A stretch of DNA of 64,000 nucleotides from Cliona cf. orientalis (taxonomy: Eukaryota > Porifera > Demospongiae > Clionaida > Clionaidae): NCBI GenBank assembly GCA_963930775.1, contig OZ005697.1, positions 5,354,292-5,418,291 of the forward strand, given 5' to 3'. Below the pieces are notes generated by a model. It searched no databases. It worked only from the letters and a program-made list of their open reading frames with translations, and was not told where the DNA came from. This document shows, piece after piece, positions 24,950 through 64,000 of this stretch; the stretch's first letter is position 1; every line of letters starts with the position of its first letter. A program made the translations under genes and the position numbers.

Positions 24950-25194
24950 ATCACTAAATTGAATAAAACAAGGCTAATACTAGTACTTATATTTAATAGA
25001 TTGTAACAAGACTTAGTATTCTAGCTAATTTTAAGCCCCTTGCAATTGGTGCCTTAGGTCTTCAGATACTTAATGCTACACTGCACTGACCATGAATTAC
25101 AGCTATCTGGCAGTTGCACTTTTGGCACCTACTTTTTGAAATGCTATTCTGCATCATGTTGTATCCCCTGACAATTATATCCCCAACCCCAACA

Positions 25195-29926: not shown

Positions 29927-30436
29927 TTTATTATTTTCAACATTATAAACTGCATGCTACTTACTCTGAAGTATAGCTGGTCAAACTTCTTGGCTTACAT
30001 AATTAATCTATAGATAGCGTGCGTTATATATTATACATGTATAATAGTCTTCTTTCATCTTCTACTGATATGCCAGGTGACTTTCAGGTCAATTAGTACA
30101 CGTACGTGGTTTTCATGCTTATCAAGCCATACGCAGGTCTCTTTGAAATTTATACACCGAGGGCTGCAGGCCCAAGGCTGTGTAAATCGTGAAGAGACTG
30201 AACCGAGTGATGTAATCGATTTGTACTATGGGACCAATCAGATTTGTGCTGCATTGGATACGCTTAGCAACCAGCGCTAGTAGTCGCAACTTCAAATTAA
30301 AGCTTCCATAGCAACTACCTGAAATAGTTTCAACTGGCCTTTGTGAACGATGGAGGACGAACTCGGCACTATCCTTTTGCAGATAACCCCGAGCAGCAGT
30401 TAACTTTGGAATCCATGACCTTTGAACTACTAAACG

Positions 30437-34427: not shown

Positions 34428-34627
34428 NNNNNNNNNNNNNNNNNNNNNNNNNNNNNNNNNNNNNNNNNNNNNNNNNNNNNNNNNNNNNNNNNNNNNNNNN
34501 NNNNNNNNNNNNNNNNNNNNNNNNNNNNNNNNNNNNNNNNNNNNNNNNNNNNNNNNNNNNNNNNNNNNNNNNNNNNNNNNNNNNNNNNNNNNNNNNNNNN
34601 NNNNNNNNNNNNNNNNNNNNNNNNNNN
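34428..34627. other. Assembly gap (200 N)
   Basis: Exactly 200 undetermined bases, probably a placeholder length. Sequence on both sides is AT-rich and shows no recognised gene, but see the donor-like site next to its left edge. Confidence 1.
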
Positions 34628-43442: not shown

Positions 43443-44209
43443 ATAGACTACGTAACCGGGATTGGAAACTGCTCACGTGAGCAATAGAGTCCATGGTCCA
43501 CTGCGCTGCACTGGTATATACATGGTGCAATCCGTGTCGCACGGAAAACCACAAAAATTGCGAAAAAATGGCCAAAAATCACACATTTTTCTAATACTTT
43601 TGACAATAGCTACTAAATAGAAACACTTACAACCTTATAACTTAGCTATCCTCGTGGACAAGGGCTTCTTCTAACTATTTATAGTGACGAGAAGTTCCTT
43701 GGTTCAGTATCTGAGGTGTTCTAGTCCCAACAACGAGGCGACTTCAAAATGGCGTCTTTTTTTGTGCTTCTGACTGTTTCTGGCTCAGCGGTAGCAGTAT
43801 ATCCTCCAAATAGTGGCTATCCTAGTGCAGAGGCACCATATTTTGACTTAGAACTTCAGTTTTTGGTAGCTGCTGCCACGGGACTCGAGATACAGGTCCA
43901 AAAGTTGTTTTGTACAGCGTCCTATGGGGCAAGTATGGGCGAAGGCGACTGAAATAGCAGTGAACAACTTCGTACCCCGAAAAGACTGCCGTAGATAGTT
44001 GCGCTCTTCAAAACTTTTTTGCTATAGTATTCTTCCATCATAGAGCTTTACTTTCGTTGCCTCCACTTAGCTACAGCACTAACACAGGCTGCAGTAGAGC
44101 CATGTTCAGCTGCCTCGGTCAAGGGGACACGGAGTGCCCGCCATGGATTGCATTAACTCTATTGCTCACGTGAGTAGTTTCCAATCCCGGCCCGGGTACG
44201 TAGTCTATA
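43443..44209. mobile_element. Foldback element, TAGACTACGT...GGGATTGGAAACTGCTCACGTGAG ends, copy 1
   Basis: The left end CCGGGATTGGAAACTGCTCA and right end GAGTAGTTTCCAATCCCGG are inverted, and both lie inside TAGACTACGTA / TACGTAGTCTA. The interior contains a short open frame (43749-43952) beginning next to AAAATGGCG, a phrase shared with copy 2. It is probably not a gene. Confidence 0.7.
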
Positions 44210-44223
44210 TGATCTATATATAA

Positions 44224-44364
44224 GTTAGACACTGAAGCCAAGGGATCTACAGGATTTAGAATACTGAAGACACTGATATAAAATCCCGAAGGCGAAGCCT
44301 GAGGGTTTTATAAGTGTCTGAAGTATTCTAAAGACTGTAGATCCCATTGGCCGAAGTATCTAAC
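44224..44364. repeat. Small foldback hairpin element
   Basis: The arms GTTAGACACTGAAGCCAAGG...ATAAAATCCC and GGGTTTTATAAGTGTCTGAA...GTATCTAAC pair over about 60 bases around a short GAAGGCGAAGCCTGA loop. Confidence 0.7.
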
Positions 44365-45463
44365 CTTATTTAGACTCTAGCATGAGGTTGCTAAGTAACA
44401 TGATGCAAGTTGTTGCCCTAGGTATCAAAAACTGGGTTTCTAAGTTGTAAGTATTCTAAGTTGTAAGCTTTCTAAGTTGTAGGCTTACTAAGTGACTTAG
44501 ATACTTGATGCCAACCAATCAAATGACAGAATTTGTTACAACTAGAGTCAGGCTCGCTAGCGCTCACTCCTTTATCACTGTGCCGCATATTACATGATTG
44601 GGCATGTGCCATCGACGACCTTTACCTACATATTTATGCGCAAGTGCATGATTAAGCTAGCGCACGTGCACATCCTGCCTGATCATGTGACTTGGCAATC
44701 AGCAAGCTCAAGAAACTCGTTAGTTGTCTTGCAGCTTCCCTCGCAAGGGCTCGGAAGAGGAGATGCCTAGAGTAGAATCGCCTCCTTCTGGAAAGCACCT
44801 ATGGGCAACATTGGCTCCAGAGTGTCATCCCTTTGCATTCCGCAGGCTGCCATTGTAAGTAGGTAGTACAGTTCAGTCTAATTTTGCCCTGGCGTTTTTT
44901 TTTTTTTGAAGCGGCTCACTTTACTCGCTGCTTGGGCCATACCCAGCCGTGTCAGTGGGCTATCGGTTGTATCGCCCCAAGTCCAGCGATGCCTAGATAA
45001 AGAACATTTTAGCTCGGGTCGAATCGCTTCCGGTCACCTCCCGCTCGTACAGACGCACGCACGCACGCACGGACAACTATAATCTTAGTATAATGATTAT
45101 ATATAATATATGGTACGTCGGTCCTTAGTTACGCCCCGCCCAACGTCCACCATTCCGTATATATGCTGCTCTAATTCAACGACTTGCAAATTTACATTCA
45201 TGTGTGCTAGGCTATCGCGCGCTATAAACGAGGCAAGAGCAAGACTCTTAAGACGGAATTCGTCGTCAATCGGAGCCTCAGCTAAACAGCGGCCAATAGT
45301 AGGAGAGCTACAGAGTCGGCAAAAGAGAAAGAGCTAGGCCAGGGTATCCTGCAGCCCATAGTTTATAGTTGGGCGTGGTGCAACATAAATCACTGTTACA
45401 CGCTCACTGTCACGGTCGCTCAGGCTCGCCCCCCGGCCCACAATGCTGTGCATTTCCCTAGTT

Positions 45464-45963
45464 ATAGAGATTGGAAACTGCTCACGTGAGTAATAGAACG
45501 TACGTACGTGTACGTGTACGCGCACTCCGTGCTATGGTTTGCATTCTTGGATAGACCGGTTGCTATAGAAGAAAATGGCGACCGCAGTGAACTTCTTATC
45601 GACTAATAGCAGCGAAATAAAGGCTTATTCTAGTGAAGGAGTCCCTACTTTAAACGTGGCCAGCAAAGTTGAATTTCCGAAGTCTCTCTGGTCTACGCTA
45701 CAGCCCCACAAAGTAAACATGGCCGATTTTTGGCCCTTTTCACGGCCTGCTCACTCACAGAAGACAGCGCATCAAGTGTCAAAACTATCACAAATAAGAC
45801 AGCGCATCTCAAAATGGCAAGTTCGAAACTACTTGATAAGTTCACCGCGGTCGCCATTTTCTGGCAATCTGCTCAAATTGTCATAGCAACGGGTCTATCC
45901 AAGAATGCATGCAAACCATAACACGTACACGTGCAGTTTCCAATCCCGTTTACGTAGTCTATA
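45464..45963. mobile_element. Foldback element, GGGATTGGAAACTGCTCACGTGAG family, copy 2
   Basis: The outer ends GATTGGAAACTGCTCACGTG and CGTGCAGTTTCCAATCCCGT are inverted. Inner arms AAAATGGCGACCGCAGTGAA (45573) and TTCACCGCGGTCGCCATTTT (45841) are also inverted. The two overlapping open frames at 45575-45921 follow from this symmetry. Another isolated end is at about 46045-46072. Confidence 0.7.
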
Positions 45964-46311
45964 ATATCAATGGACAGGGCCGGGCAAGACTGGGTGAAGA
46001 CTCGTATAGCTATGGGAGATAGGTATTATACTTGGCAAAACTGAGCGTTCTATAGCTCACGTGAGCAGTTTTCAATGGGGGGGGGGGCGTAATCGCGGGA
46101 TACATGTACAGTACATCCCCGAGTCCCAATCACGATGAACTTTTTTTAACTGTTAAGACTGTTTCAAAATGTTTAGCACGCATGAAAGTTTGTTGAGGCC
46201 CAGAATTTATAGAAGAGATTAATATAATTATGGCGATTCTCTCGGTTCCCTTTCTTTAACGAACTCGCTCTCTGGCTATTCAGTCCAGCACATGGCAGGT
46301 GGAGGTCACGA

Positions 46312-47296
46312 CCGGTGTGGTAGCGATCTATATCACCAGGGATACATGCCCCCCAGGACTCATATCGCTAGCGATGTGACCCCTTACCAGGTCCCATATC
46401 GCTAGAGATATGGGGATATATGCCCCCCTCCGCGCAGATGCTGCCGACGGGCACCGCGATGGTGGCTGTCTAGTCTCGCGTGGCCAGCACCTTCACTTCT
46501 GGTCACATTTGCTGTTTGCTGCCTAGATGGATTCCATTTGCAGAGCTGCATGCATTATGACTTGACATAGTGATCGATCTGTTCTGATCCTTGAGCTAGA
46601 AACATTTTATAGAATACATTGGCGGTTTTCTGCACGTATGTTGAATCTTCACCGGCCTCTTGGGCCTCGCCAACGTGGACGGAAATGGCTTCATCTTGCC
46701 ACTCTCGATGCAAGGCACAAAAAGTGTTGCCTTGCACATATATGTAGAAAGTATTCACATTTTGCTTGTCATTTGTTAGCATTACTCTGTGGCATAGGCG
46801 ATGGCAAAGAGCCCACAGTCAATGCCTCCTTGCTGCATCTGTGTGCTCTCAACATGGAAGGTGATGAAATCATGCAGATTCTGAAGCTGATTTCATTATT
46901 GAATCACAAGTGTTTGGTTAATACCAATCACTGTCATCCAGTGGTTATTGCCAACATGCGGAATCTGGAGGCTCAACCATCCAAGAAGGTGGGTTGAAGA
47001 GAGAAATTATCTCTTTAGCATATCGCTTGCAGCACTGCATGGTATGTTTATCTGTTCGCATTCGTTGACAGCCAATGTGACTGACTGATTTCGTTCTTGG
47101 ACAGTTTGATCGCATTTGCCTAGATGGATCATCTTTCGTTGCCTCTTATGATGAGGAGCTGCTATTACGCGTTTCCTACGGCGCTGCGTCGCACATTAGA
47201 AGCAGGCCGGAGGGCCCACATCGCGGGACCGCTAGCTACCTAGGCCCCCCTACGGCCCCATATCGCTAGCGATGTGGGGTACAGGGCCTACACCGG
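46312..47296. mobile_element. Element with CCGGTGTAG ends and CATATCGCTAGCGATGTG palindromes, copy 1
   Basis: The ends CCGGTGTGG and CTACACCGG are inverted. Subterminal palindromes of the type TATCGCTAGCGATGTG occur at both ends (46364, 46399, 47261). Inside lie open frames on both strands (46555-46997) and, downstream, QFDRICLDGSSFVASYDEEL on the plus strand. These look protein-like but were not recognised and may be remains of a transposase or a captured gene. Confidence 0.5.
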
Positions 47297-47589
47297 GTCA
47301 ACCAGTTCGCGCGCCCCAACATACGCGTATGACGTCACGCGCGCAGAGGGAAGTCAAAGGTGCGCATTAATTTAGTACTTTTCATGAGGGACGAGGGAGT
47401 TATCCCCAGTAGCAATTTATTAATGCAAGTAAGTTCACGCTTTGACGTAATCCCGTGGATAAATAAAACTAGCCTTGTGCTGTACGAACGATGCGTGACA
47501 TGCCACGATCAACCTGACGCTCGGAAGCTGTACGGCGCTATCGAGTTCATCTAAGCATCGAAACCGAGATCTCGAGTCGGTCTCAGACT

Positions 47590-48236
47590 CCGGTGTAGGA
47601 GAGATATGGGCTACACCAATTTCACTAGTGGTTTGAACCCCCCCCCCCCCCCCCCCCCCCGTAGGGAAATGGGAATCCCACTAGTTAATGTGCACGCCTG
47701 TGTCACGCTGTCAACGCTCCCCCCCCCCCCCCCCCGGATAGTCCAATGCGCTATCACAATTTCAAGCAGTGGCGTAGGCGGGGGTAGGGGGTGCTCGGGC
47801 TCGAGCATCCATTGAACAGACTCATCCAGCATCCGCCTTGGAAGATAGTTACATCCCAAGCTAGAACGCGTTCTCTTTGACAATTTGAACTTCGACCTTG
47901 ACGGTTAATATGTATGCGCGACCAATTTTTTTTCTTTTTTTTTGCGCGCGCGTACCCTTGGCCACATCTACTATATCACTAACCACGATTTTAAAATCTG
48001 TGATGCTTTATAGTCGTAGCTACCTACATTGATCATCACCTCTGACAATGTCAATATAATAGAATACTGTGACAAAGTCAGCAGCACCGGCGGTGGGGTT
48101 CCCATTTCACTAGGGGTCCCTCTACTCCTAGTGATTTGGGCACTCAGGGGTCCATATTTCACTTAGCCCATAACACTACTAGTGATATGGGTTGGGGGTG
48201 CCCAAAAAGTGGGGTCCCCATATCCCCGCTACACCG
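47590..48236. mobile_element. CCGGTGTAG-ended element, copy 2
   Basis: The left end CCGGTGTAGGAGAGATATGG and right end CCCATATCCCCGCTACACCG are inverted. Subterminal palindromic words (TTTCACTAGTGG, CACTACTAGTGATATGGG) parallel those of copy 1 with different cores. It contains two long C tracts (47637-47660 and 47720-47736). Confidence 0.6.
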
Positions 48237-48594
48237 GCATCGATGTGGTTTATAGACTATTGACGACCATTACCATAATACTAGGGGCCTGGTACACACT
48301 GCATGCGCATGCGCGGGGGACCCCAGAAAAACGTGGGGTACTAGGATACTAACGCATACTCTCCGTTTATCGTCCATAGAACTCTACGTCATGCAGAACC
48401 CGCGAACGATCACTATTATTATTATTATTAATTTGTTAATCACACCACAATAGGTGTACTGATAACATAATTATAATGTATAAAATAATATTAGTAGTAG
48501 TCATTAAGAGCTAGTGTTAGGTTATGGGATAGTGTGGCGCGATGTGAGCTGCATCTTTTGCAATTGGTGAGCTATATTTAGAATTAAAACGCGG

Positions 48595-49353
48595 CTGGTC
48601 TCGTGCCCAGACCCCACCCCATAAATAGCGATTACAGACCTCCAAGGGCCTGCAGTAGATCGTGAATATCTCGGCTCTGGCTGGGAGTACACTCATGAAA
48701 CAAATTGTAGTAGATAGCTCAATGAAAAAGCTATCTACCGAGGCCTTAACCTTGCAAATCGGTCCCGCGGAATCGCCGCTAGCTTCATTTTTGCTTGTAT
48801 TAAGTTTCTATGGAGAAAAGTTTAGGTGGGCGTGGCTTCGTAACGGTTTTGCCTACGATCGCGTTATAAGCGCCGTTGGATAGAGCTCGTGGAGAGCTAC
48901 CTTCTGATATTCGAACATTGATATCCCACTGGGAGAAGTTCCGCGGAAAAAACGGTGAAATTTGGAGGTCTGTAATCGCTACCATAAAGGGGGAAAGGGG
49001 TCTGGTGAATTTGGACCGTTTCCTTGGTTTGGCTAGTCTCGTGCCCAGACCCCACCCCTAGGCCCTGGGCACGAGACTAGGTTTGGCCGGCTCGGTGGGC
49101 GCGCGCCGACACTACGGTAGTGAAACAAACGTTGAATCTGATTGGTCATTGGCGCGGCTGCGCGCGGGCCGACAATTCAAATTTATACAGCAGGCAATGG
49201 CGCTTTGAATTTCTGCGATTGGCGAGTCATATGACTAAGGTAAAGCTGCAATCTCATTGGAGCGCTCAAATTCCTTTCCTTGGCCCAAGGATTGTGCCCA
49301 AATTCACCAGACCCTTTTCCCTCCTCGAGGGTAGGGTCTGGGGACGAGACTAA
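48595..49353. mobile_element. Two adjacent CTCGTGCCCAGACCCC elements
   Basis: The outer ends GTCTCGTGCCCAGACCCCAC and GGGTCTGGGGACGAGACTA are inverted. Between them a head-to-head junction, GTGCCCAGACCCCACCCCTA followed by GGCCCTGGGCACGAGAC, lies at 49030-49080. The phrase GGGGTCTGGTGAATTTGG is mirrored by AAATTCACCAGACCC. Related to 10482-10864. Confidence 0.6.
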
Positions 49354-49925
49354 AACGCGACCAACGTTGACGATCTTTACCGCGATAATTTGCGCATGCG
49401 CTATGAGCTAGCGAGCACGTGTTTGACGTATCGCTACGTTTTTACATACATACAAATAATATACGTAAGTTTCTCGTAGTACTGATAATAGTGTGGGGCT
49501 CGCCCCAATTAATTATACACCACGAGAACTACATGTATGTAGCTACTGGGGATGTGGTCAAGTTTTCATTATATCCCTAGTAGCAATTTACTTTTCTGAA
49601 ACAAGCAATATTTGCCCGGCCAGTAGCTAAGGGTATCAACTCGTGAAATTTTGCACAGATATAGGTGAATATGGAAAATGGTTCTGTAAAGTTTGTATAG
49701 TGACTCTTTACCACATACAATGAAGCTACTAGGGATGTGTTAATCGTTTCATTAACAAAAAAAAGTAAGTTATGGATATATAATTATTATAGCTATAATA
49801 ATAATAATGTAATTGCTTGTACTGGATCATTATACTACTGTGAAGTCAAAGCGGAGTACACATTGTACTGACCAGCCTATAATGTTATAACTATGTGTCC
49901 CATGATGTCTATTCTACAATTTAAT

Positions 49926-52900
49926 TTATGTGCAGCCTTCAGGTAGTAAGGAGTTGACACGTTCTAAGTAATCAGTTTGTTGCTGAAGCTCTAGAAGGGT
50001 AGCTTCTAAATTACTTCTTGCTTCTGCTTGCATAGTTACCATATTCTGAAGTTCTTGGTATAAAATTGTTGCATTATATGACAAGCGATCGCCCAAATTT
50101 TGAAGAAGCAGTTCAATAGCTGTTATGTTCTGTGACCGAGTTTGATCAAGAAGGGTATCCAGATTCATTCGCAAATTGTTGACAATATCTGTAGTGCTTG
50201 AATTGGCATTCTTCAATGAGTTAGCTAGAATAGTGGCATTTTCTGTAGCTGCATGTATTTCATCTATCCTAGAAACATTGCTGAAGGTATAATTTTGAAG
50301 TACAGATAAATATGAAGAATTCAGAAAGAGATCGTCAATATTTTCTTCAGTGTTTTCAACAAAAAGTGGCAAGTCCAATAATGAAATAATCTGTATGGGT
50401 TATTAGATGCAGATGAGTGCACATGTATTTGAACTAGCATTAATTTATACCTTAAGTAATTGTACACACTTGTATTGGTGGCTACTAACTGCATAGCTAT
50501 TATAATGTACGTTCCATGAGCAAGAGGGCACTGCAGTCCCACAAAGAGGATCTACAATGCTTACATAGATGATATGCCTTATTTGTTATTCAAACGAGCG
50601 TCAATTTATTGTGAACCACGATTTTTTCTTAAGCTGTCAATTAATTAATCCGAAAAATAAACTTGCCTATATACTACACACTGGTACCAATGTGATTCAT
50701 AATTAATTTTGGCTTGATAATGCGAACTGGTAGGCTCAGGAATACCCCACCTACCGTATTTCTTCTAAAAATTCGGCCCTTCTAATTATTCGGCACCCTT
50801 TACCGAATGATTGAATATAGTCTCTAATTTTTCGGCAAAGGTCGTCATGTGTATATGCTATAAACGGGATTGGAATGCGCACGCAGACAGAATGATGAAT
50901 ATTAACCTCTAAAAATTCGGCGAAGCTAAAGCAATATTATTATTTCCATGCCGAATTTTTAGAAGAAATACGGTATATACAGATTTGCACCACTTGTTGA
51001 TTGCTATAAGCATAATAAAAGTCTGGGTGGTATAACTTTGCTCGCTGGCTCTTGCTCATGGCACATTCCATACAGATCCCAAATTCTAAGTGCAGTGAAT
51101 ACACAATAATAACACCGTGCATAGTGACCTCATAGGGTACAAAGACATGTCAACATTATTACTTACCTGTTCAGCTTCTCTTGTGGTATCCTTTGCATTG
51201 GTGGCTATTTGTGTTGAACTTTGGATTTCAATATTTGCTTGTTCGATCTCTATAGTGATGTTTCTGGCTAGGCTTTGTGTTTCTCTAGCCCTACTTTCAA
51301 TAAGCTGTGCATCAGCAACTATCTGACTTATATCTTCACTGACATTCTGTGACTCACTACTAAAGTTTTGTAACTTCCAAAGAATTTCCTGAATATGATT
51401 GATGGTAGCAAGGACCAACATTAAACCTTGTTCAGCCTTCATTTCCTGGATGGCAAGCTCAGTATAGGCATTGCTTAATCTTGTGGTAAGATTGGTTATA
51501 TTGGTTTCAAATTTGTCAAAGTTCTCCACATATAAACCAACTATCCTATAAATTGCAGCATGCTGGTTGAAGTAGGTGTTGATTTCAGGCATGATGTCCA
51601 AAATTGTATGGTTTTTTGTGTCTGTAGCATTGTAGATGAGAGTACTTAGATCATCTTCTACATTCTCATAGTATGGTAGGTGAGTAGGCTGCTGCCGAAT
51701 CAGAGCTCCCAAGGATGCTATTTCTGTAAATAGCATTTCCAATTCACTTTTTGATGACAGAATAGCTGAACTGAGAGAAACAGATTTCAGTTTTAGATTC
51801 TCAGATGTGCTCTCAATGACTGCAATTGTATCTTGCACATTCCGTACCGCACTTGTGCCCAATTTGGAATACGTTTGAGTTGAGTCAATGAGATCACTGA
51901 GTTCAATTATTTGAAATGATATTATTTGACTGATATTAAAGAGATCCTCTGCAACTGAATTTATAAGCATAAATTTTTCTTCAATCATATTTAGAGCTTG
52001 TGCTATCTCAAGAACAGTCATTGATTGAAGGATCTGCTCGAGTGCCTGTTGTGTAGCAATAAAATTAGACATAGTACGATCCATTAGTTCTTCTGATGTT
52101 GATGCCAAAACAAGAACGGTTGTTGAAACGCTCCTTAAGTCACTGAGGTCAACTTCGATCTGTCTTAGTTGCCCCAGAAGTGTGTCATTCAGGGTTGCCA
52201 TAAGGTGTTCATATTGAACTATTATTGAATAATATCTGGTTAAAGTACTATTCACCAGACTTAAGGTTATATTTGATTGTACTTGTGTATCAGCCAATTG
52301 ATCACTGATAGCATGTTCTTCATCCCCAAATGATGCTAGTATCTGTTGTAGTCGTATAATACTGTCATTAAAGGATTGCTTTATCTGTAGAAAGTTTTGT
52401 TGAAGTTCTTCATAGCAGTCGGGGCACACTGAAAGAATTTCGCATGATCACTAAAAGTGTAACACAATAAGGTTTGAGCAACTTACATACACATCCTTCA
52501 TCAGTCTGAAAATAATTCAATACACACTGACTGCAGGTTCTACTTGTTGCTCCAGACTGACAAGTACAAATCCCATTTTCATCACATGATTCAGATACAG
52601 AATTGGAGACCACACACATACACTCTACAGATAAAGAACTGTGATGCCATCCAGAAATATTGGTAGCAATTAAAATTAATTAACTTAAGTAGTTGGATCC
52701 CAAATATTTATTATTGATAACATTGGCGGATTTTAGTTCGGTGGTTTGGTATAGGATCCACATATATACATGTACATGTACATATTATAAGATTGGCGGA
52801 TTTAATTTGGCAGGCAGACTGTACCACCAAATTTAGTTTCAGGCCAAATTTTCAGGCTGAGTAGCAATTCTGATTTGGATTTCATCAGTATGGTGGAAAC

Positions 52901-55900
52901 ATAACATTGGAGTCTAATAGAAACATCATAATCAAACAACTTTCCATAATGAAGCTTGTATATACTCTCAACATAACTGACAGGGTTTCATCCAGTGGGG
53001 TGGCCGGGGGGCAGCATTCCCTCAAACTCCCTAGCTTCTCCCCCTAAAACTTTGACTTACCATATGGCGGGTAATTTTCGTGGGTGCTAATTTTCGTGGA
53101 AAGTCGGAAAAGGCCCTCAAAATTAATTTTCGTGGTTTTAAATTTCATGACAGCAACCAGTCAAGGGGCGTGGCACTGCAGCACAAGCGATGGTATAATC
53201 GATGCGCGCGCTCGCGATCTCGCTCACCATCTTCTTTGTTACTAATCCATACCTGCAGAGGCTTGGACAAATAGTATGAGATAGAAGAATATTAGTGTCT
53301 AAGACACTATCAGCCGTGGCTACTGTTGCTTGCTACACTGGTAAGGGTAAGTGTTGGCTGCACTGCCACGATGTTTGTGGCCACGCCCATCATCATGGAC
53401 TCGCATAATACCATATCACCGGCACCGTAGGCATTAATTTTCGTGGGTGGGAAAATTTCGTGACTGCCAAATCAACAACGAAAATAACGAAAATTAGCAC
53501 CCCACGAAAATTACCCGCCATACGGTTATATCACAATATCACAATAAGTCACCAAATCATACCACTAGCATCTTTTGATCAAAAATTACCCGAAACAATC
53601 TGGAGTAATAATTATTCTAAAATACATCCCAAGAACTTGGCGTGCTACATACGCCCACTCATTTATTGCACTTCCACCCCAAATCTTTATTGCTAGATGA
53701 AACTCTGACTGATGACACGCTGTAACCTACACCAAACTTAACTTACAGATGACACATTGTACTAATACCTGTGCAGCCTTCTGGAGATAGTCCAAAGTAT
53801 CCTGTATCACACTGATCACATTTCAGTCCACTCACGCCATGTTTGCACTGACACTGACCAATAGCGTCACACTGAGTGCTCTCAGCACCTTCTGGATGAC
53901 AATCACAAGGCAAACATCCCAGCATACTACTATAGCCATAATGACTGTCATCACATTCAGTGCATCTTCTTCCAGTAACGTTTGGCAAGCAAAAACATTT
54001 TCCAGTAATGGGATCACAGGATGAGCTGTTGGACCCACGGCTATCACAGTCACATACTGCATAGACATGCAGTAAGGTTACAGCATATTATTTAAAAATC
54101 CTACAAACATACCTGAACAATTTTTCGCAGCAATTGCATCACCATAATATCCATCAGCACAAACTTCACACTGATCACCAACTGTATTATTGAGACACTG
54201 AAGACAAATACCAGACGTTTTATTACAAGCTTCAGGATTATCATAATCAATATTTCCATTGCACTGGCAGTCAGAGCATGTGGTTGGAGTTCCTGTGAGA
54301 TCTCCAGTAGGATCTCCAAAATATCCATTAATACAGGATTCACATTTCAGTCCAGTATGTCCTGGGGGACAATTAAAACAAATAACCTGGCCGAGAGTTG
54401 CATTAAAGCTGCATTCAGCAGAAAATTGCCCTGGTTCACTGGTACGAGGGCAAGGACAGAGTTGACAATGAATCTGCTGAAGTGGTTCACCGTAAGTACC
54501 TGGTTGACAGATCTCACAAAATCTTCCAGTGGTATAGTTGCTACAATTAGTGCATACACCTGTCTTTGAGTTACAAGAATCTGAAAATCCATTGCACTGA
54601 CAAGGTACACAGGAACCATTGGAGGATCGAGTATACCCATTGGCACACTGTTCACATGAAAGACCCTTGTAGTTTGGTGGACATGAGCACTGTTCAACCC
54701 ATGCAACTTGATCTTCACCTACAGACGATTGTTGCACTGTGTCCAGCATGATGGCATTGATGACTACTGGATCACTATAGCTAGCTGTAATGTACACATT
54801 GTCCAAGGAGAACAAGACTGACTGCAAAATAAAAGCATTGATGGGAAGATTTGTGGTCATATCAATCCATCCTGAAGACTCGTGCAGACGTACTTGAAGA
54901 ATAATTAACCCAGCATCAATGGATGCCATCGAAAAGTTTGCACCTATGCGTGTTTCGTCAGACAAAAGTATAACATCAGCTGGGAAAATTGTTGTTCCGA
55001 TCATTTCATGGGATGTATCTATAACAACCGTGAGGTACTGATTATATGAACTGAGTTTATTTCCACCAAATATTGATGGTGCTTGCAAATAAGTAGCTGT
55101 ATTGGATTCCAGTATGATACCAGTGGATGCATTGTAAGAAATACTGGTCTGATTATAGATTGTAGTCCACCCATGGCTTGCACTTTCATTGAATCGAGTA
55201 GTGATGACAACAGCAGTATATCCACTGGCTGAAGTACAGTTGAATGACTCTCCTGAACAAAAGCAAGGTTGACATCCAGAGGGGTTGGACTGACAAAGAT
55301 TGTAAGTTCCTTCTACACACTGAGAGCAATCCCTCCCTTCAACGTTTTGCTTGCATTGGCACTGACCAGTGAAATTATTACATAATGAACTGAATGATCC
55401 AGATATTTCACAAGAGCAAGAGCTACAGTGTTCAATCAGCAATATTGTATGGATTTCTATTATGGAATAATATTATACCTGCATCCAGTTTGTGAGAATC
55501 CAAAGTGCCGCTCCTGGCAAGTATTACAGCTGGCACCCCTAACTCCAGGCTTGCAAATACAAAGCCCACTTTGCTCATTACACTGTAGAGATACTGCACC
55601 TGCAATAAAAAGCAATGGTCAATTTTCCAAACTCCCATGACTAATCGAACACGACAAGACAAACCACAACAATTTTAACCAAGTCCAGCATAGAAGGAAG
55701 TTAATTACTCAGTAACAAAGTATAGTAGATAGGTTGGAACCTTTTGTTTGGGCTGAGCTAGCCTGGGCACGAGGCTAGGGCTGAACACGATCCACAAAAT
55801 TGCTACAGTAGTGGCCACACTGAAATTAGTACCTCAATATTATTATGGAAAGTATTTTTTTTCCATCACATTAGCTATATTTGGCATGAGACATTAAGTT

Positions 55901-58900
55901 GGGTTTCTCAAAAAATGCTAATTGTAGAAGTGCGGTACAACATAATGTAAGTGAACAACATAATATTCAGACTTGAATTACACAGCCTGGGTTTCTAAAT
56001 ATCACACTTAATAGAATAATATACAAAGGCTATTTTTGTTAAACGAGCATAGAACTAGAGCTCTGTAGAGCACATGCCCCGTGTGAAAGGGCCTGGGTAC
56101 GAGGCTAATGGCATGCATGCATTATGCATTGAGTAGACGATGGCTAAACAAAAAGGCACAATTTGTGATGCTGGTAGGTTGTGTCTCTCATACTGAAGCC
56201 AGTTTTCAACAAATTCGACTGATTTGTTGTGGTTATGAGTTGCTCAGGTGACTAGGTCTCAAGATATGGCGTATTTTGTACTCACGATGACATGACTGAT
56301 TACCCCTTGCACATATACATGTAACTTACAATTAATAGATTCTTACAATCATAACCTGTCCGACAGTATAGCGATCAATTAGTCATGCTTAAGGTGATCA
56401 TAATTACAATAATATTTTTACCATGCAGTGTTCTTAAAGAGATATGGATGTCCCAAACATGTGGGGAAATTTAGGCCATAACAATACTGGGTATTATTAG
56501 ATATTGTATAGGTTTATTGCCACGGTTATTGTAGTGGGTATAATATGCTATTGAGCTTGGCATAGCAGATCAATGACGATTTCAAGGAAGCATAAATTCA
56601 GGACATTTTGGTCTGTTGACCTTCATCAGCTGTACTAACAAAGGTCTATCAGAGGAGATCCAGAGACTCTGCAGAGGACTGAATGTGAAGATCTGCTTTA
56701 AGTCGCACAACACCCTAAGAGAGATAGGAGTGGTCTACGAGATACCATGCCAGGACTGTGAGAAGGTATACATTGGAGAGACTGGAAGAAGCCTCCAAAA
56801 GAGAATGATGGAGCACAAAGCAGCAGTGAGGAGAGGAGATAGGAACAATGGAATCGCTGTACATGCATGGGATGAAGACCATAGGATAGACTGGGAAGGT
56901 GCAAACATCAAGGAGCAACTGTGGAAGAGGAAGGCACTGGAGGCAGTACACATCTGCATGCAGCCTAACACGCACAATCTGGGTCGTGGCTTGATACTAA
57001 GTGATGTATGGCTACCTTTCACGAAGAAACAACAATAACTAATGTCATCAATATTCATTATTTATAACAATCATCTCATTACATCATTTCTGTTTTCAGT
57101 CTCTAGTCCATTGATTCCTTGGTTTTTGTTAGTACAGCTGATGAAGGTCTACGAACCAAAATGTTCCGAATTTATCTTTCCTTGAAGTTTTCATTGCACA
57201 ATAACATAATACTTGAAATTTTCATTGCACAATAACATAATACCCAATATATAATATTATATATGATGATAATTATATTACCGGGTATATGTAGGCATAA
57301 TGCAGATAGATATTCCAATGTAGGATCAGGCTTGTATTACCGTAGTGTCCTGGGTAAGTGCCCATGGGCGCTTAAACATAAATCGCAATTAAATTTTTGG
57401 CCTGCATGGGCGCTTACCCGGGATATAATTTCCATATGCATATTTTGTATAGAAACTGCTAAATTGACCCCTTGAAATGTGGTACATGGGGAGTTGGCGC
57501 TTGCCTACTGGACACTATGGTACATACAATAGCAAACAGACCACCATATAAATGCTGCTTATATCCCTTTTACATAGTTTTCTAGGACAATTATTCTTAA
57601 TATTATCGCACTGCTAAGTGTGCGATATTAACCCCCTTAGGGTGTACAGTGCGATATTAATTCCTTTAGGGTATACTAGTACTGTATACTTGATACTGAG
57701 GTAAGTTAGGAATATGAAGTGTACGGAGGGAATAATTGACACTACACAGGATACAATTTAGTAATCATTCAAATGACACTTGCCATGTGCAAGAACTAGC
57801 TAGCTAGTTCGTACGGTGTACCACGCTTCTCTCGATCGAGAAACTAAAAGGATGCCACTGTTATTGACAAAACTGATGCTGGACTATTATTAGCTAGTAG
57901 TACAGATAGACAGCTATTCAAAACACTCGTAGCTAGCTAGCTAGGCTACTGACAATCAACAGCTAACCTCGCTCAGTCAGCGAGTTCGAGTTGGATGGTT
58001 CTTTGTCTTGTCACTGTCAAAGTTGAACAATAGGTATTATAGACTACATAAACGTAGTCTATAGTATCTATGGTTGAATTTGTTTCTTTGGAGTGGCTTG
58101 TTTCCATGGAGAGGAGCCATTGACCAATCAGCGGTGAGATAAAACACTGCGGGGGGCCACTGTTTACTTCCTTGGGATATGAATTAGTTATATCACGTGC
58201 GCTCGGGATCTATGGTGACATATTGCACTCATCCCTCGGGCTTCGGTGCAATATATCGCATAGATCCCTCGCGCCCGTGATATAAACATTATATGAGACT
58301 GTAACAGTAAAAAGAAACTAGAGTCTGAGTTCTCTAGAGATATGCATATAGTAATATGTGACTTGGCAAAATAAAGTAGTAGTACAAAGGTTTTCTGGTA
58401 ACCCATACTCAGTGAACCTGCTTAGTATTTCCTTGGCTTGAAGGGCAATATTATATACCCCAGGGAACTAATAAAGGAACGTGCTACTGGAGAGCTAGGT
58501 TGTCCTAATGAAGATAAACCTACAGTATGAATCTGTTGTCAAAGATTACAAGTACATGTGTATACTCAGTAACTGATTCTTAATTAGCATACCAGTTATA
58601 TTGCAGCTACACTCTTTGCAGCCATCGCCAGAAGATAGATCCCAGTAGTTTTCTGCACATTCAGAACAATTCATACCCACAATGTTGCTCAAACAATTGC
58701 ACTTTCCACTCCCTCTGTCACATATAGCACTAATTGAGCCCTCAGAACTGCAACTACAGGCTGAGATGATAAAGCCATGATCACATACAGCTCTTATGTG
58801 AATAATTATGCAGCATACATACCACTGCATCCTGAAGAAGATAAGCTATGAAAACCAGGACGGCACATACTGCATTGCTGTCCTTGAACATTAGGTAAAC

Positions 58901-61900
58901 ATGGACACTGTCCTCCAAATGCCATACAAACTTGTCTTGGTATGGCTCCAACTTCAGAGCAGTTGCATCCTGAAAGGGAACATTATTATTGATTTGTACA
59001 AAAGAAGCTGAAGGCTCTTACTTAAAGCACCAGAATATAAGGCAGTAGACACCAAGAATATTGCTTGCCGACACAAGGGACTGATACTGTCTACAGTAGA
59101 CAGACTTCTATAATAACTAGCACACATGTCATAGTCAAGGAGTGTTGGACCACCCAATAATTCATATATTGTAGAAGCATTGACAAAGATTAGAATAAGT
59201 GAGTCAATACGCAGATTTGCAGTGCTATTCATCTGTCCTGAATCAAAATTGTCGAGCTCAAATTTATATGATCTTCCTCCTCGAAGACAGACTCTTTGTG
59301 AAATGGAAAGTCCATAACCCATATTCCATGATGAATACTCAATAGCAACAGTTTCATTTATCTCTGTAGTTGATTCACAAACAGGAGGATCATCTCCCTC
59401 TTCTGAGCCTACTGAAATAGTAAGTGACGCTGAAGACCATACACGAACACCCTCCAAATCATATCGAATTACAATGTCATAGAGGCCACTTATGGGAGGA
59501 ACCACACGTCCAAAGGTTATATTGCCAGCTTGATTGACCACTTGGTAATATCCATTGTCCCCGCTGGTCACGATTAAGGCATTTGGTACTCCAGCTGCGT
59601 ACTCTGCTTCATAGAGTAGATAATCAATGGATGGTAAAAAATAACCAGGAATGACATCAGAACACGTTCGTCCAGTTAAACCTGGTTGACAGAAACATTG
59701 TCCAGAATTTATGTCACAAAGTATGGATGATGATCCTCCAAGATTGCAGTCACAGGGTTGACAACCATCAAAGCTGCTAGAATTAAGCATGTAAAATCCT
59801 TCCATGCAAGAGTTGCACTTTCTTCCAACAACATTTGGTTTACAGATACATTCACCTGATAGAGTATCGCACTCAATTCCCATGCTCCCGGTAAGGTTAC
59901 ACTCACAGGCTGTGTGTACATAATCAAATAATACTAATACCTTATGAATAATGGTCATAATCACACACCTTGACAACCTTGTGGATTAGCCAAACTTAGA
60001 TTGAAGTATCCAGGAGCACATTTAGAACAGGTTCTACCAACCACATTCTCCTTACAAATACAATCTCCTATTTGAACACTTGTTGAGTTCTCCCTGGCAC
60101 AATCACCATCATTAGTGACACCAGGAATATGGCAACCACAAGCTATTTAATAATAATAATATAGTGAGTGTATAATTATGCACAATAATTTAACTAACCA
60201 ACACAAGCAGTTGGATCGGTGAAGGGGATTCCTTGCTGAGGATAGAAATAGGGCGCACAAATTTCACACTGTCTTCCAGAGGTATTATGCATACAGTTGA
60301 TACAAACACCTCCACTGGTACCATTGTTCAGTTCATAGATTGTCTCATCAAATTCACATAGATTTGAGTGTTTGTTACAGTTGCATTCTAAATATTTTAC
60401 AAATGCAGATCCACTTGATTGTAATAATATTACTCATGCAAAGCCTATTAGAAATACCACAATTTCTGTGTCAATGTGACTCATCCTAGGCACAAACGTA
60501 TGGAAGCCCAAATGGTTACTGCATAGTATGTTTATTTAGTCAGTAGATCCCTTTCTCATAAGGAGGAGTGATCTGGAAATGGGAGTCCCAGATAGGATAC
60601 CTTTACCCTTATAATAGCCAGAACATGTGAATATTTTTACCTCGCGAGTATGTGCAAGGGGTAAAACAATCGGTTTTGTCTGTTGTCGTCTGTCGTAAAC
60701 ACAAAAACTTGAGATCTAGGCATCTGAGTGACTCGTAAGTACAACATATCAGTCAATATCGTCGAAAAATTGGCTTCATTATGCTTCAAATCATTTGGCA
60801 AGGCCCATGAGTGTCGCAAATACTTCATTTTATTGGCCATACCTATGGACACTACTCACTACAGACCACTGTTCCGCTGATGCGCACAATCTGGCAAAAT
60901 ATGTTGTACATGCATGTAGCTAAAGGTCATCAATAGGCTCATGTTTGCTGGAGCTCTCTGATCTGACGTTGACACTGCAGCGCACGGGGTATGTGGTATG
61001 TGCTCTATAGAGCTCTAGTTGATCTATGGATTATGTAGCTTGAGGCTCAGATTGTCACCATCACTATCGAGCTGTGATAATTTTCTTATGCAAAATATTC
61101 TTGCTAAGTCTCCGCTGGGCCTATTCTGCTGATAAAAGTTCATGGACCAAGAAATAATGAGATATTGCATATTAAAAAACTGGGTGAGAAATTAGAGCCT
61201 GTAGAGAACATACATTGTACAGATGACAATATCGAATTTTTCTGGTTAAATTTTATTTAAATGCTACATGTGAGGCATAGCTGCAGGGGTCCTGGTGATG
61301 TCAGTGAAGATATTCCACCTCTCACCTCTCTTTACCCCAGGCCTTGCGCCTAGAAAGATATGGACTGCTACTACTTACACTTGGTTAGCATTCTGATTTG
61401 GTCCCATGGGGCTTCACATTTCAGCCAGCGGATAGCAGCATAATATAACTTTCACAAGCATTATTTAGAACATTTCACGATCTTTACCATGTACCAGTGT
61501 ACTAGTTGTGCTCACGACGACAATGACAATACTGGACGATACAACCGATTACTATACTCCTTGCGCATGTGTGCAGGGTAATCAACAAAGCTCCAATATT
61601 TTCAAATTGCAAATGGTAAATATTGCTGCTTCATCTCCCTCTCCAATGGATAAGTATCCACAGGAGCCCATCGGCTGGTCCTGGTATATACCCTTTTTCA
61701 ATTAATATGAACTATAATTATACCCAATGGCTTTAGTCAACTGTCCCTTTGATAACTGTCCACGAAATGTTCTTTGTTTCTATGTATCGAATAGCTGGAA
61801 ATTTTTGTCTGGAGAAAGTTTTGCCAATTTTGCTACCAACTTTCATTGGTGAAAACGAATTTTTTTGTCGTGTGTTAATGATTACATAGAGCACATACCC

Positions 61901-63532
61901 CGCATACCCTGGAAATATTACATAGAACACATACCCCGCGTGCCATGGAAATATAATAATATAATATCACCAATACCTCTTGTTAGAGGCCTCTATTTGT
62001 TGAAGTTCAGCCTCTTGCTGCTCAGAAAGTTTAAGTGATCTCTTTCGTTCCCTTCTGAGATCCATAATCACCAATCACATTAATTTTGGAGCATGCTGTA
62101 GAGAAGCTCGAGCATGCGCAGTAGACGCCCTAGTTCATGAGGTACTAGATGGGCGTGTTCGATGTAGGCATGTTCGACATACTTGCATGATTTGCAGCTC
62201 CCCTGGCGATTGCCTAGGATTAAGAAAGGGATAGGAGGTGCCTTTTCACTGCCTTAGACGATTTATCCCACTCATTAATCATACATTTGCTTAAATATTG
62301 AGATTATGTTGACAGACGACAGGCGACAGACAAACTGATTGCTTTACCACTTGCTGTGCATGCACGCACGTGAGATAATAATGGCATATTGGTGAAATTT
62401 TATTCCACCAAAATTAATAATGCAACCTAGCTTGGCGAAATATTTGTCTGGTCAAAGTTTTCGGCTATATGGTACGTTGGTATCTACATACAAAATTTCT
62501 TTGCATACCTTGACATTCAAAGGATCCATTTCCGTCAGCTCTTTGCCAAGGTACATCTTGATATAAATCTGCACACCTTTCACAAAATTTGCCAGTTGTA
62601 TTGTGCAGGCACTCACATTGGTAGGTTCTAGTTGAAGGATCTCTTGAGCAAGATGAAGCATGTCCATGGCACTGACAGCTACCAATTATACTCAAGTCCT
62701 CAATGGCATAGTAATAACCAAAATCTTCAATTTCACGGTTGGCAATGGGATAGTGATCCATCAGAAGAATTGAGATGTTTGTTGCTGTTATAAAATCATA
62801 GAGCTGCTCACTAAAACCAGGAATAGAATCATTACTTGAAGGTCTGCCTAGAGATGGGAAGAAACTGATTTGAGCTGGAGCAGGTGGACTTGGAATATTT
62901 TGGCATAAAACTGATGTTTCATTGTCTGAAGTCAACACTTGGTCAGGATTGATTCCATATGTGCCAAAACAAGACGATGAGAAGTAATGAAATGGAGCAT
63001 ATGTTTTTCCAAAATCTCTTGATTTGAGAACGTAAAAATTGTTTGGTAAAGGAGAAATAAAATTGAAAGCTATAACACTGATCTCCACCATGGTACCAAG
63101 AGCCATATCAATTGCAACCACTTGCTGAGGATTAATGCTGTTTTCTGACTGCCACCAGCTTTCTTCATTGAGCAAGAAGTCTGTCATAAATTCAGCTTCA
63201 TGTGAAAATTGAGGGTCACTTGCATTGCATACACCAGTACAATCGTTAATAAAGATTTGTCTCAAGTGGTCAATTTGTCGATAACAGAACATTGTTGGTG
63301 GGTCACCACATGTGCTGTTCACTCTTGGAATGACGTCCAGAGAGAACGAGCGCCGTGGCGGCTCACAACGAGTGGGCTTCCCACTGTCATCATAGCAAGA
63401 AGAAGTGGGTGGAAGAATGTTTTCTCCAATAACACCACTGAATCCTACCATCAAACTAAAGAGCAGCAGGAACTCCCCGAACACTCTATGAAGCAGAGAC
63501 GATTTACTGGACACGCCTCCTTGAAATCGCAC
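49926..63532 (-). CDS. Laminin chain, gamma-like but with both LF and L4 domains (twelve exons)
   Basis: Secreted basement-membrane protein. Exons: 63532-62509, 60387-60199, 60142-59969, 59909-59022, 58969-58823, 58760-58593, 55599-55479, 55422-54113, 54056-53769, 52624-52487, 52428-51167, 50390-49926. All have GT-AG borders and matching phases and total 2057 codons plus stop. Order seen: signal peptide (to about 36); LN domain with CYDDSGKPTRCEPP and YYYAIEDLSIIG, phrases like the gamma1 LN; LE repeats (about 288-545); LF / laminin IV type B (about 546-757); more LE; L4 / laminin IV type A (about 972-1155) splitting an LE; more LE to CPDCYEEL (about 1487); then about 570 residues of low-Cys helical coiled coil ending EGCT, with a penultimate Cys as in chains that disulfide-pair. 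No LG domains, so not alpha. Vertebrate gamma1 is about 1600 and beta1 about 1790 residues. LF is characteristic of beta chains and L4 of alpha and gamma chains, so the combination is odd. Confidence 0.93.
50754..50973. mobile_element. MITE, CCGTATTTCTTCTAAAAATTCGG ends, TA-flanked
   Basis: 220 bp in the last laminin intron. The ends CCGTATTTCTTCTAAAAATT and AATTTTTAGAAGAAATACGG are perfectly inverted with TA on both sides. Internal repeats of the word ATTCGGC occur. Confidence 0.85.
53060..53525. mobile_element. MITE, CCGTATGGCGGGTAATTTTCG family, copy 3
   Basis: 466 bp in a laminin intron. The left end CCATATGGCGGGTAATTTTC and right end GAAAATTACCCGCCATACGG are inverted, and TTA lies on both sides. 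The symmetric subterminal GTGCTAATTTTCGTGG / AACGAAAATTAGCAC extends the arms to about 45 bp. The best-preserved copy of its family here. Confidence 0.85.
56054..56310. mobile_element. MITE-like repeat, 'AGAGCTCTATAGAGCAC' family, copy 4
   Basis: It begins CTAGAGCTCTGTAGAGCACA and ends GATTACCCCTTGCACA. It lies in the 3-kb intron between laminin exons 6 and 7. Confidence 0.55.
56585..57183 (+). mobile_element. Penelope-like retroelement fragment with GIY-YIG endonuclease
   Basis: The frame 56616-57038 (140 residues) holds a GIY-YIG nuclease domain: VVYEIPCQDCEKVYIGETGR, the typical spacing to LQKRMMEHK, and a downstream HAWDEDHRIDW block. This is the C-terminal nuclease of Penelope-like elements, which use it to nick target DNA for reverse transcription. 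The reverse transcriptase part is absent, so this is a 5'-truncated copy. Inverted repeats of about 58 bases flank it (56585-56642 and 57125-57183), both including the text CAGCTGATGAAGGTC or its complement, as in the terminal repeats of these elements. It is inserted in a laminin intron on the opposite strand. The direct repeat TTTTCATTGCACAATAACAT occurs twice just downstream. Confidence 0.8.
57340..57520. mobile_element. Small MITE, CCGTAGTGTCCTGGGTAAG ends, TA-flanked
   Basis: 181 bp. The ends CCGTAGTGTCC and GGACACTATGG are inverted, with TA on both sides. Inner symmetric words are TGGGCGCTTA and GGGCGCTTACCC. It lies in the same laminin intron as the Penelope-like fragment. Confidence 0.75.
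58024..58052. repeat. Solo palindrome of TAGACTACGT ends
   Basis: TATAGACTACATAAACGTAGTCTATA is a palindrome made of two ends of the 43443/45464 element type without the interior. Confidence 0.55.
60638..61018. mobile_element. MITE-like repeat, 'AGAGCTCTATAGAGCAC' family, copy 5
   Basis: It begins with GTGCAAGGGGTAAAACAATC text and ends GTGCTCTATAGAGCTCTAG. It lies in laminin intron 1. The interior CTTGAGATCTAGGCATC matches copy 1. Confidence 0.6.
61979..62068 (-). other. Coding-like exon inside laminin intron 1, unrecognised
   Basis: The minus strand reads MDLRRERKRSLKLSEQQEAE and continues LQQIEASNKR before a possible donor AG|GTATTG. It is a highly charged helical stretch with a good ATG context. 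No continuing exon was found in the rest of the intron. It could be the first exon of a small nested gene, a remnant of one, or chance. Same strand as laminin but not in the inferred laminin transcript. Confidence 0.3.
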
Positions 63533-63860
63533 TAATCAATCGAAGAAATGCAATAAGTGAAAGGATAAATAATGAGTTAGAAACTTACTCAAAAACATTT
63601 TTCACATAAAATAGTGTTGCTTGCAAGCAAGTAGAAGATAATAATAATTATTATTCTCTAAGATCTTCTTTAATATGGGAAATGGCGCACAATGACACAC
63701 CCCTTTTCTACCGCCGCATGGGGGTGTGGTCACAGCCTTCTTATTAGCCCTCATGTATTTTTCAACTCCATACGTATCTAATAGGGTTATTGCATGGACT
63801 ATGATTTCATGAAATATTATCATCAAATTCAATATCATTATAATCATTATCATTATGTGT
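63533..63860. promoter_or_regulatory. Compact 5' region of the laminin gene
   Basis: Only 328 bases separate the laminin start codon from the stop codon of the upstream kinase exon on the same strand. The laminin promoter, its 5' UTR and the kinase 3' UTR must share this space unless a further upstream non-coding exon exists. An AATAAA overlaps the kinase stop codon (63860-63865, minus). No clear TATA box was identified. Confidence 0.4.
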
Positions 63861-64000
63861 TTATTCTTCTTTACAATCTTTGCATAAGACCCAAGAATGT
63901 GCCAAAACCTCGTCAAGGCCAAATCTCTGGACAGGATCATATGTTAGCATGGAGGTGATTAGATCACGGCATTCTTCTGAGATCCACAAGGGAAAATTGG
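63861..64000 (-). CDS. C-terminal end of a Ser/Thr protein kinase (partial)
   Basis: The minus frame runs from the window edge to a TAA and reads NFPLWISEECRDLITSML, then TYDPVQRFGLDEVLAHSWVL and a short tail CKDCKEE. This is the end of a kinase C-lobe (subdomains X-XI): S-x-E-C-x-D-L-I, then D-P-x-x-R with the conserved arginine, then H-x-W. The pattern is commonest in CAMK-group kinases such as the TSSK, SIK or CaMK types, but the catalytic part is outside the window, so the exact family is open. No regulatory domain follows; the protein ends about seven residues after the kinase fold. Confidence 0.8.
   Translation of the reverse strand, partial: NFPLWISEECRDLITSMLTYDPVQRFGLDEVLAHSWVLCKDCKEE

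Follow-up and report, generated by a model that had tools for sequence, protein, structure and literature searches.

Joining the minus-strand exons from 63598 to 49926 of the analysed window (the whole stretch of DNA, 64 kb long) yields one frame of 2060 residues with a single stop at its end. This is very probably a complete gene, and its product, most likely from a sponge, would be a laminin chain of the beta/gamma type that serves as one arm of a secreted heterotrimer. Laminin is the protein that builds the mesh beneath animal cell layers. The chain comprises an LN domain, LE1-4, a truncated LE5 (LE5t), an LF domain, LE6-9, an LE10 carrying an L4 domain, LE11-16, a 574-residue heptad region and a terminal cysteine. 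The succession of LN, LE array and C-terminal heptad region identifies it as a laminin chain, and the union of a beta-type LF with a gamma-type L4 places it in the beta/gamma type (Table 1).

Table 1. Exons and inserted domains of the laminin gene, in window coordinates
Feature	Position	Strand	Content and evidence
Exon 1 (candidate)	63589..63598	-	ATG and first 10 nt; donor ATGTTTTTGA/GTAAGT and acceptor GATTAG/TG hold the frame; proposed from sequence only
Exon 2	62509..63531	-	Candidate leader region, LN (residues 47-288; 63403-62678), LE1; Pfam Laminin_N, PDB matches
Exon 3	60199..60387	-	LE2; 8 Cys
Exon 4	59969..60142	-	LE3; 8 Cys
Exon 5	59022..59909	-	LE4, truncated LE5 (6 Cys), LF; beta2 5lf2 match, PF21199
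LF (laminin IV type B) domain	59022..59628	-	Residues 560-762; last codon completed in exon 6
Exon 6	58823..58969	-	LE6; 8 Cys
Exon 7	58593..58760	-	LE7 and first 2 Cys of LE8
Exon 8	55479..55599	-	Remaining 6 Cys of LE8; LE8 whole only with exons 7 and 8 joined
Exon 9	54113..55422	-	LE9, LE10 split by L4, LE11, LE12, LE13; PF00052, perlecan match
L4 (laminin IV type A) domain	54690..55235	-	Residues 970-1151; splits LE10 between its third and fourth Cys
Exon 10	53769..54056	-	LE14, LE15; 8 Cys each
Exon 11	52487..52624	-	LE16; 8 Cys
Exon 12	51167..52428	-	CPDC start, first part of heptad region
Exon 13	49926..50390	-	End of heptad region, C-terminal ...LPEGCT, stop

The gene contains 12 introns, eight of which measure 52-62 nt, and all 12 run from GT to AG, the borders having been picked by hand to fit this rule. 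The short introns and the type of chain are what point to a sponge as the source. An earlier reading of the sequence alone (hereafter, the sequence-only reading) had described twelve exons in one open frame; the single frame holds, but the count rises to 13, because its initial exon had no good ATG and we therefore propose a 10-nt exon 1, which would be followed by a 57-nt intron. A strict LE cysteine pattern, which misses other LEs, matched nine times in the six frames of the window, each time within exons of the model. Scans of the window with Rfam and for tRNAs returned no matches. Phase 1 marks both ends of each of exons 3-7, including the symmetric exon 5 that encodes LE4, LE5t and LF, so that such a block could be moved with the frame intact.

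The longest intron of the gene (2993 nt, 55600-58592) separates the LF-bearing from the L4-bearing part and carries the remnant of a GIY-YIG element (24.9 bits when scanned alone, against a cut-off of 22.6, and 21.3 bits in the read-through frame). A long intron with such an element could be taken to mean that a netrin/beta-like 5′ gene and an adjoining gamma/perlecan-like 3′ gene have been misjoined within this intron. We consider this extremely improbable: LE8 is interrupted by this intron, with two of its cysteines on one side and six on the other, and the domain attains its eight cysteines only when exons 7 and 8 are joined, which speaks for a single gene. Together with the uninterrupted frame, this bears out the initial judgement that an accidental join of two genes is unlikely.

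The domain search proposed alongside that judgement recovered Laminin_N, Laminin_B and laminin IV type B in the joined protein with Pfam, the last exceeding its cut-off only when the domain was scanned alone. Across the whole chain, Laminin_N scored 130.5 bits, and EGF_laminin and EGF_LMN_ATRN matched 15 and 5 stretches, respectively. All 22 sequences among the PDB matches listed for the LN domain are LN proteins. The best of them is netrin-1 (121.2 bits), and the laminins follow in the order gamma1 (90.3 bits), alpha1 (43.9), alpha5 (42.0) and beta1 (37.6). The N-terminal domain had been described as gamma-like, which agrees with gamma1 being the nearest laminin, but netrin-1 scores higher overall. 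The stretch from LE1 to the truncated LE5 scored 200.1 bits against the beta1 chain, in a region where the PDB gamma1 chain covers LE1-2 only.

In the whole-chain scan the LF domain reached 26.5 bits with LAMININ_IV_B, half a bit under the Pfam cut-off of 27, and scanned alone it exceeded the cut-off, matching PF21199 with 34.1 bits and covering positions 1-209 of the 210 in the profile. Aligned to laminin beta2 (5lf2), the LE5-LF-LE6 region scored 69.4 bits for the LF-bearing stretch and 97.4 bits with the second LE stretch included. A chance match is ruled out by the near-complete coverage of the PF21199 profile at that score together with the LF-bearing 5lf2 stretch. The LF domain noted after the first LE block is therefore real, but in the present numbering it spans about residues 560-762 rather than about 546-757. 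Guided by the LF features listed in the accessible part of PMC5338690, we find that the truncated LE5 ends in GYF, that ALYSGAL precedes LE6 and that the LF contains four cysteines (643, 673, 728 and 745), three of which align with beta2 cysteines while the third of the four is offset by six residues. The EAE of YEAEYA (565) and the aspartate of RIDSLIL (699) align with beta2 residues that resemble its calcium ligands. Searched alone against the PDB with phmmer, the LF returned no laminin or perlecan and one unrelated row. An AF2 model of the LF built without an alignment has low confidence (mean pLDDT 39.1), and a fold search with this model gave 15 matches at E ≤ 0.001, with 5lf2 at ranks 1 and 2 (TM-score by query only 0.39-0.40) alongside CBM35 modules and unrelated proteins such as 4-1BB ligand; given the quality of the model, this lends weak support to the LF identity. 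A scan with the pattern of the LE4-LE5t-LF exon over genome contigs, in a collection not aimed at animals, matched 38 stretches, not one of which is a relative.

The L4 domain was recognized, with Laminin_B scoring 55.9 bits in the whole chain (cut-off 22.4) and PF00052 scoring 60.5 bits on the domain alone and 58.9 bits on a piece of exon 9. Cysteine counts place it between Cys3 and Cys4 of LE10, in agreement with the proposal that an L4 splits one of the later LEs. The best single PDB match to the LE-L4-LE region is perlecan (9i5b, 174.6 bits). The L4 alone, searched with phmmer against the PDB, returned no laminin or perlecan and four unrelated rows; its AF2 model, also built without an alignment, is poor (mean pLDDT 40.1), and an exon 9 pattern scan of viral contigs, again in a collection not aimed at animals, gave no matches. 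Further on, LE12-14 align with gamma1 LE7-9 at 111.9 bits, against 61.1 bits for beta1, and the equivalent of gamma1 LE8 carries a candidate nidogen loop reading NIDYDNP where gamma1 has NIDPNAV. As judged by these matches the chain is a mosaic, netrin/gamma-like in LN, beta-like in LE5-LF and perlecan/gamma-like in L4 and LE12-14.

Over the 566 residues encoded by exons 12 and 13, the 3.5-residue hydrophobic periodicity amounts to 3.23, compared to a mean of 0.93 and a largest value of 1.84 in 500 shuffles. Cysteines occur only at positions 1, 4 and 573 of the 574-residue C-terminal part, which therefore lacks the cysteine-rich interruption of beta chains (L-beta). The coil matched no Pfam family and three NCBIfam families, none above cut-off, and phmmer searches of the PDB returned no laminin for either the coil (four unrelated rows, the best being delta crystallin at 20.9 bits) or its C-terminus (five unrelated rows). 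The gamma-like character suggested for CPDCYEEL, with which the coil begins, thus finds no confirmation. The chain ends in ...LPEGCT, with a glutamate fourth from the end, before the last cysteine, and one residue after that cysteine. In gamma1 the glutamate lies after the last cysteine, and the tail following it is longer. A gamma-chain glutamate close to the C-terminus is required for integrin binding according to the available text of PMC6744579.

No LG domains follow, the stop coming right after the terminal Cys-Thr, and Pfam found nothing at E ≤ 0.1 in the three minus-strand frames of 44001-49925, a scan that could overlook exons that are short or lie farther away. The absence of LG domains bears on the reading of the gene as an alpha3/alpha5-type chain that has lost them. 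In the accessible part of PMC5338690, the first insert of alpha3/alpha5 is weakly homologous to LF in its first ~200 residues and the second is an L4, so these chains too have an LF-like insert followed by an L4. The first insert of this chain, however, is about 200 residues long, against about 580, the LN domain favours gamma1 over alpha1 and alpha5, and the chain stops at the terminal Cys-Thr; we thus reject the alpha-type reading as highly improbable.

In the preferred beta/gamma-type reading, the chain would be secreted and its heptad region would wind with two other laminin chains, one alpha-like and one beta/gamma- or gamma-like. The CPDC cysteines, where the coil begins, and the lone cysteine near its end would hold the resulting trimer together. 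The LE array would act as a stiff spacer from which LF and L4 protrude as side globules, and the LN tips of neighbouring trimers would join to form a sheet on the cell surface. Since the chain has no LG domains, cell binding would fall to the alpha-like partner.

Chains of this kind have precedent. The accessible portion of PMC10280926 describes two chimeric beta/gamma-like laminin chains in Oopsacas minuta, likewise in A. queenslandica, along with gamma-like ones that bear one LamIVA (L4) domain, and reports that no beta chains were identified in either Amphimedon or Hexactinellida. Its term "chimeric" leads us to infer that LF plus L4 would define the published type. In view of the sponge chains and the alpha3/alpha5 inserts (PMC5338690), the combination of LF and L4 pointed out in the sequence-only reading need not surprise; known chains agree with the present one at the level of chain type, the domain order of the sponge chains being unprinted in the available part of PMC10280926. 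The accessible parts of PMC11260871, PMC5395295, PMC12549020, PMC5968619, PMC7385117, PMC4582122, PMC8380372, PMC4398486 and PMC4224354 do not treat chains with LF and L4. The present chain is a further example of the mixed type already reported from sponges, and the suggestion of a pre-split ancestor is in outline an already published proposal.

Two accounts of its origin may be entertained. On a tentative view, the short arm from which all laminin chains derive would have had the order LN-LE-LF-LE-L4-LE-coil, which is common to the present chain and, in outline, alpha3/alpha5; beta chains would then have lost L4, and gamma chains LE5t-LF-LE9. If true, the LE register (five LEs before LF as in beta, and LE12-14 corresponding to gamma1 LE7-9) would be a footprint of the beta/gamma split. 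Equally doubtful, and compatible with the beta/gamma-type reading, is that lineage-specific exon shuffling brought the LF-bearing LE5t-LF-LE6-LE9 block of a beta chain into a gamma chain. Netrin/gamma-like LN and gamma-like LE12-14 do flank a beta-like LE5t-LF, and the phases of exons 3-7 are favourable; the lack of identified beta chains in Amphimedon and Hexactinellida, however, leaves no obvious donor, and chimeric chains in two sponge classes suggest that the type is old (PMC10280926, accessible portion). This gene alone leaves the picture proposed from Amphimedon and Oopsacas unchanged, while providing a complete, cleanly spliced mixed chain whose LE register and intron phases bear on the origin of the three laminin chain types.

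Among known systems, netrin-1 and perlecan provide the best single PDB matches to the LN and LE-L4-LE regions, respectively, but neither is known to unite LN, LF, L4 and a laminin coil. Laminin gamma1 resembles the chain in having the nearest laminin LN, an L4 between Cys3 and Cys4 of an LE, LE7-9 similar to LE12-14 down to the NID loop, a coil without cysteine-rich interruption and a cysteine near the C-terminus; the present chain differs in its LF and additional LE5t-LE9, and so does not fit a description of single L4 and no LF, as well as in its altered nidogen loop and the one residue after its last cysteine. Laminins beta1 and beta2 share LE1-LE5 with a truncated LE5 and an LF directly behind, whereas this chain has an L4 and a netrin/gamma-like LN and lacks the L-beta interruption. 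Laminins alpha3 and alpha5 likewise have an LF-like insert behind a truncated LE and a later L4 (PMC5338690, accessible part), but their first insert is much longer and alpha chains end in LG domains. The chimeric chains of the sponges Oopsacas minuta and Amphimedon queenslandica, likened here by their description in the accessible portion of PMC10280926, combine beta and gamma features in one chain as this one does.

The minus-strand laminin gene is represented by 13 exons that join into a single 2060-residue frame. A sequence-only reading had twelve exons in one frame; the single frame stands, while its first exon lacked a good ATG. A further exon of 10 nt was therefore added, which we infer to give an in-frame ATG 5′ of a hydrophobic stretch. 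All 12 introns are GT..AG, the exon borders having been set by hand to give this, and their lengths are 52-62 nt in eight cases and 776, 1144, 2121 and 2993 nt in the others.

Coordinates of the laminin exons and of other features in the window
Feature	Position	Strand
Laminin exon 1	63598-63589	minus
Laminin exon 2	63531-62509	minus
Laminin exon 3	60387-60199	minus
Laminin exon 4	60142-59969	minus
Laminin exon 5	59909-59022	minus
Laminin exon 6	58969-58823	minus
Laminin exon 7	58760-58593	minus
Laminin exon 8	55599-55479	minus
Laminin exon 9	55422-54113	minus
Laminin exon 10	54056-53769	minus
Laminin exon 11	52624-52487	minus
Laminin exon 12	52428-51167	minus
Laminin exon 13	50390-49926	minus
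Protein kinase domain end	63864-63998	minus
GIY-YIG remnant	56577-57038	plus
MITE-like element	50752-50975	
eRF1 gene	23621-24973	minus
QRICH1/DUF3504 ORFs	30434-31425	plus
Assembly gap	34428-34627	

Against Pfam, the whole chain matched Laminin_N (130.5 bits), EGF_laminin in 15 stretches, EGF_LMN_ATRN in five, Laminin_B (55.9 bits) and LAMININ_IV_B (26.5 bits, 0.5 bit below cut-off). By themselves, the type A domain (L4) scored 60.5 bits and the type B domain (LF) 34.1 bits over profile positions 1-209 of 210, bearing out the proposal that both lie in one chain. The laminin EGF-like repeats (LE) contain eight cysteines each in LE1-4, LE6-8 and LE11-16, six in LE5 and nine in LE9, and LE10 is divided into three cysteines, L4 and five cysteines. 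Around LF and L4, these counts fit the insertion modes given in PMC5338690, with LF following a truncated LE5 without the 7-8 disulphide and L4 lying between cysteines 3 and 4.

Any false join would need the place occupied by the 2993-nt intron, which cuts LE8 after its second cysteine and leaves the remaining six in exon 8; this division makes an accidental join of two genes unlikely, as had been argued from the open frame. Minus-strand read-through of the 2993-nt and 2121-nt introns yielded no laminin domain (the sole row was Rua1_C, sub-cut-off at 17.4 bits), and all nine matches to a strict LE pattern in six frames of the window fell within model exons. Judged from sequence, the laminin chain is one gene. 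The 2993-nt intron also holds a GIY-YIG endonuclease remnant (24.9 bits), presumably of a Penelope-like element, and the last intron a MITE-like element with perfect 26-nt inverted repeats separated by 172 nt; at up to 3 mismatches the repeat occurs nowhere else in the window. Just upstream of the laminin gene, a protein kinase domain is represented by its C-terminal end (24.7 bits with Pkinase, below the cut-off of 31.7; last 32 profile positions). Elsewhere are a gene for the translation release factor eRF1, apparently without introns and with three eRF1 domains, two overlapping ORFs with QRICH1 (35.2 bits) and DUF3504 (95.3 bits) that we take to be Crypton-recombinase-like, and a gap of 200 N.

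The LE5-LF-LE6 stretch matched laminin beta2 (PDB 5lf2) with 69.4 bits; a second stretch, of LE only, is included in the row total of 97.4 bits. LF alone (202 residues) found no laminin in PDB by phmmer, which means that the neighbouring LEs contribute to the pairwise signal. Within the alignment, EAE and the Asp of IDS pair with residues of beta2 that are apparently the calcium ligands described in PMC5338690; three of the four LF cysteines (643, 673, 728, 745) align with beta2 cysteines and the other, third in order, sits six residues before its counterpart, and ALYSGAL aligns with the segment preceding LE6. Because these features accompany the profile hit, we consider the LF assignment firm. 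In an AF2 model of mean pLDDT 39.1, the LF part forms eight strands and then three helices. A fold search against PDB placed 5lf2 at ranks 1 and 2 (TM-scores by query 0.39 and 0.40 at E 2.6e-06 and 2.7e-06); other proteins followed, those at ranks 6, 8, 9 and 11-13 being CBM35 modules. Given the poor model, this lends weak support.

Among the 22 PDB sequences listed for the N-terminal domain (LN), gamma1 was the top laminin (three rows, 84.4-90.3 bits), agreeing in part with its description as gamma-like, but netrin-1 scored higher (nine rows, 117.7-121.2 bits). Other scores were 95.7 bits for unc-6 netrin, 56.9 for netrin-G1, 53.7 and 52.0 for netrin-4, 43.9 for alpha1, 42.0 for alpha5, 40.1 and 40.0 for netrin-G2, and 37.6 and 33.1 for beta1. 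LE1 to truncated LE5 gave 200.1 bits with beta1 and 70.5 with gamma1, a difference that cannot be read as a preference for beta in LE1-2 because the gamma1 PDB chain has LE1-2 only there; rows with LE1 alone reached 37.2 (gamma1), 33.5 (beta1) and 33.1 bits (alpha1). LE12-14 matched gamma1 LE7-9 at 111.9 bits (best perlecan row 72.2, beta1 61.1), and LE-L4-LE matched perlecan at 174.6 bits. The chain thus comprises a netrin/gamma-like tip, a beta-like block of truncated LE5 and LF, and a gamma/perlecan-like stretch around and after L4. The C-terminal 574 residues (the coil) have a 3.5-residue hydrophobic periodicity of 3.23, against a mean of 0.93 and a maximum of 1.84 in 500 shuffles, and cysteines at positions 1, 4 and 573 only, hence no L-beta interruption, a feature named in PMC6744579. 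Searches of Pfam, NCBIfam and PDB with the coil gave no laminin match, and the suggested gamma-like coil start is not confirmed.

While the architecture comes from the sequence itself, its working is extrapolated from laminin biology (PMC6744579). The chain would join a trimer by its coil, with disulphide bonds where the coil starts and close to where it ends; LN-LN contacts would polymerise trimers, and the LE array would be a rod bearing LF and L4 as globules on its periphery. At the C-terminus the last cysteine is followed by one residue and Glu is fourth from the end, an arrangement that may or may not allow the gamma-type integrin contact. The architecture fits reciprocal loss starting from a chain of this kind, and also a beta block inserted into a gamma chain; phase 1 in ten of the 12 introns permits shuffling.

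One scan each of genome_contigs and viral_contigs, collections not meant for animals, returned no relatives. Fahey and Degnan (2012) reportedly described five laminin-related genes of Amphimedon with non-canonical architectures, and a further chain type said to be common to Amphimedon, Nematostella and a sea urchin. The vertebrate rule invoked earlier, LF in beta and L4 in alpha and gamma chains, holds for the L4 second insert of alpha3/alpha5, but their first insert is weakly LF-homologous (PMC5338690), so LF-like and L4 domains do share a vertebrate chain. At the nidogen loop, gamma1 has NIDPNAV whereas the present chain has NIDYDNP; on nidogen itself two sources differ, PMC10280926 considering that it arose later than sponges' other components and PMC7385117 naming genes for both nidogen and perlecan in the sponge Ephydatia muelleri. 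Beta chains have five LEs before LF, a spacing equalled here. At the level of chain type, the gene fits the beta/gamma type of PMC10280926, which gives Oopsacas minuta one alpha-like and two chimeric beta/gamma-like laminin chains, as in Amphimedon.
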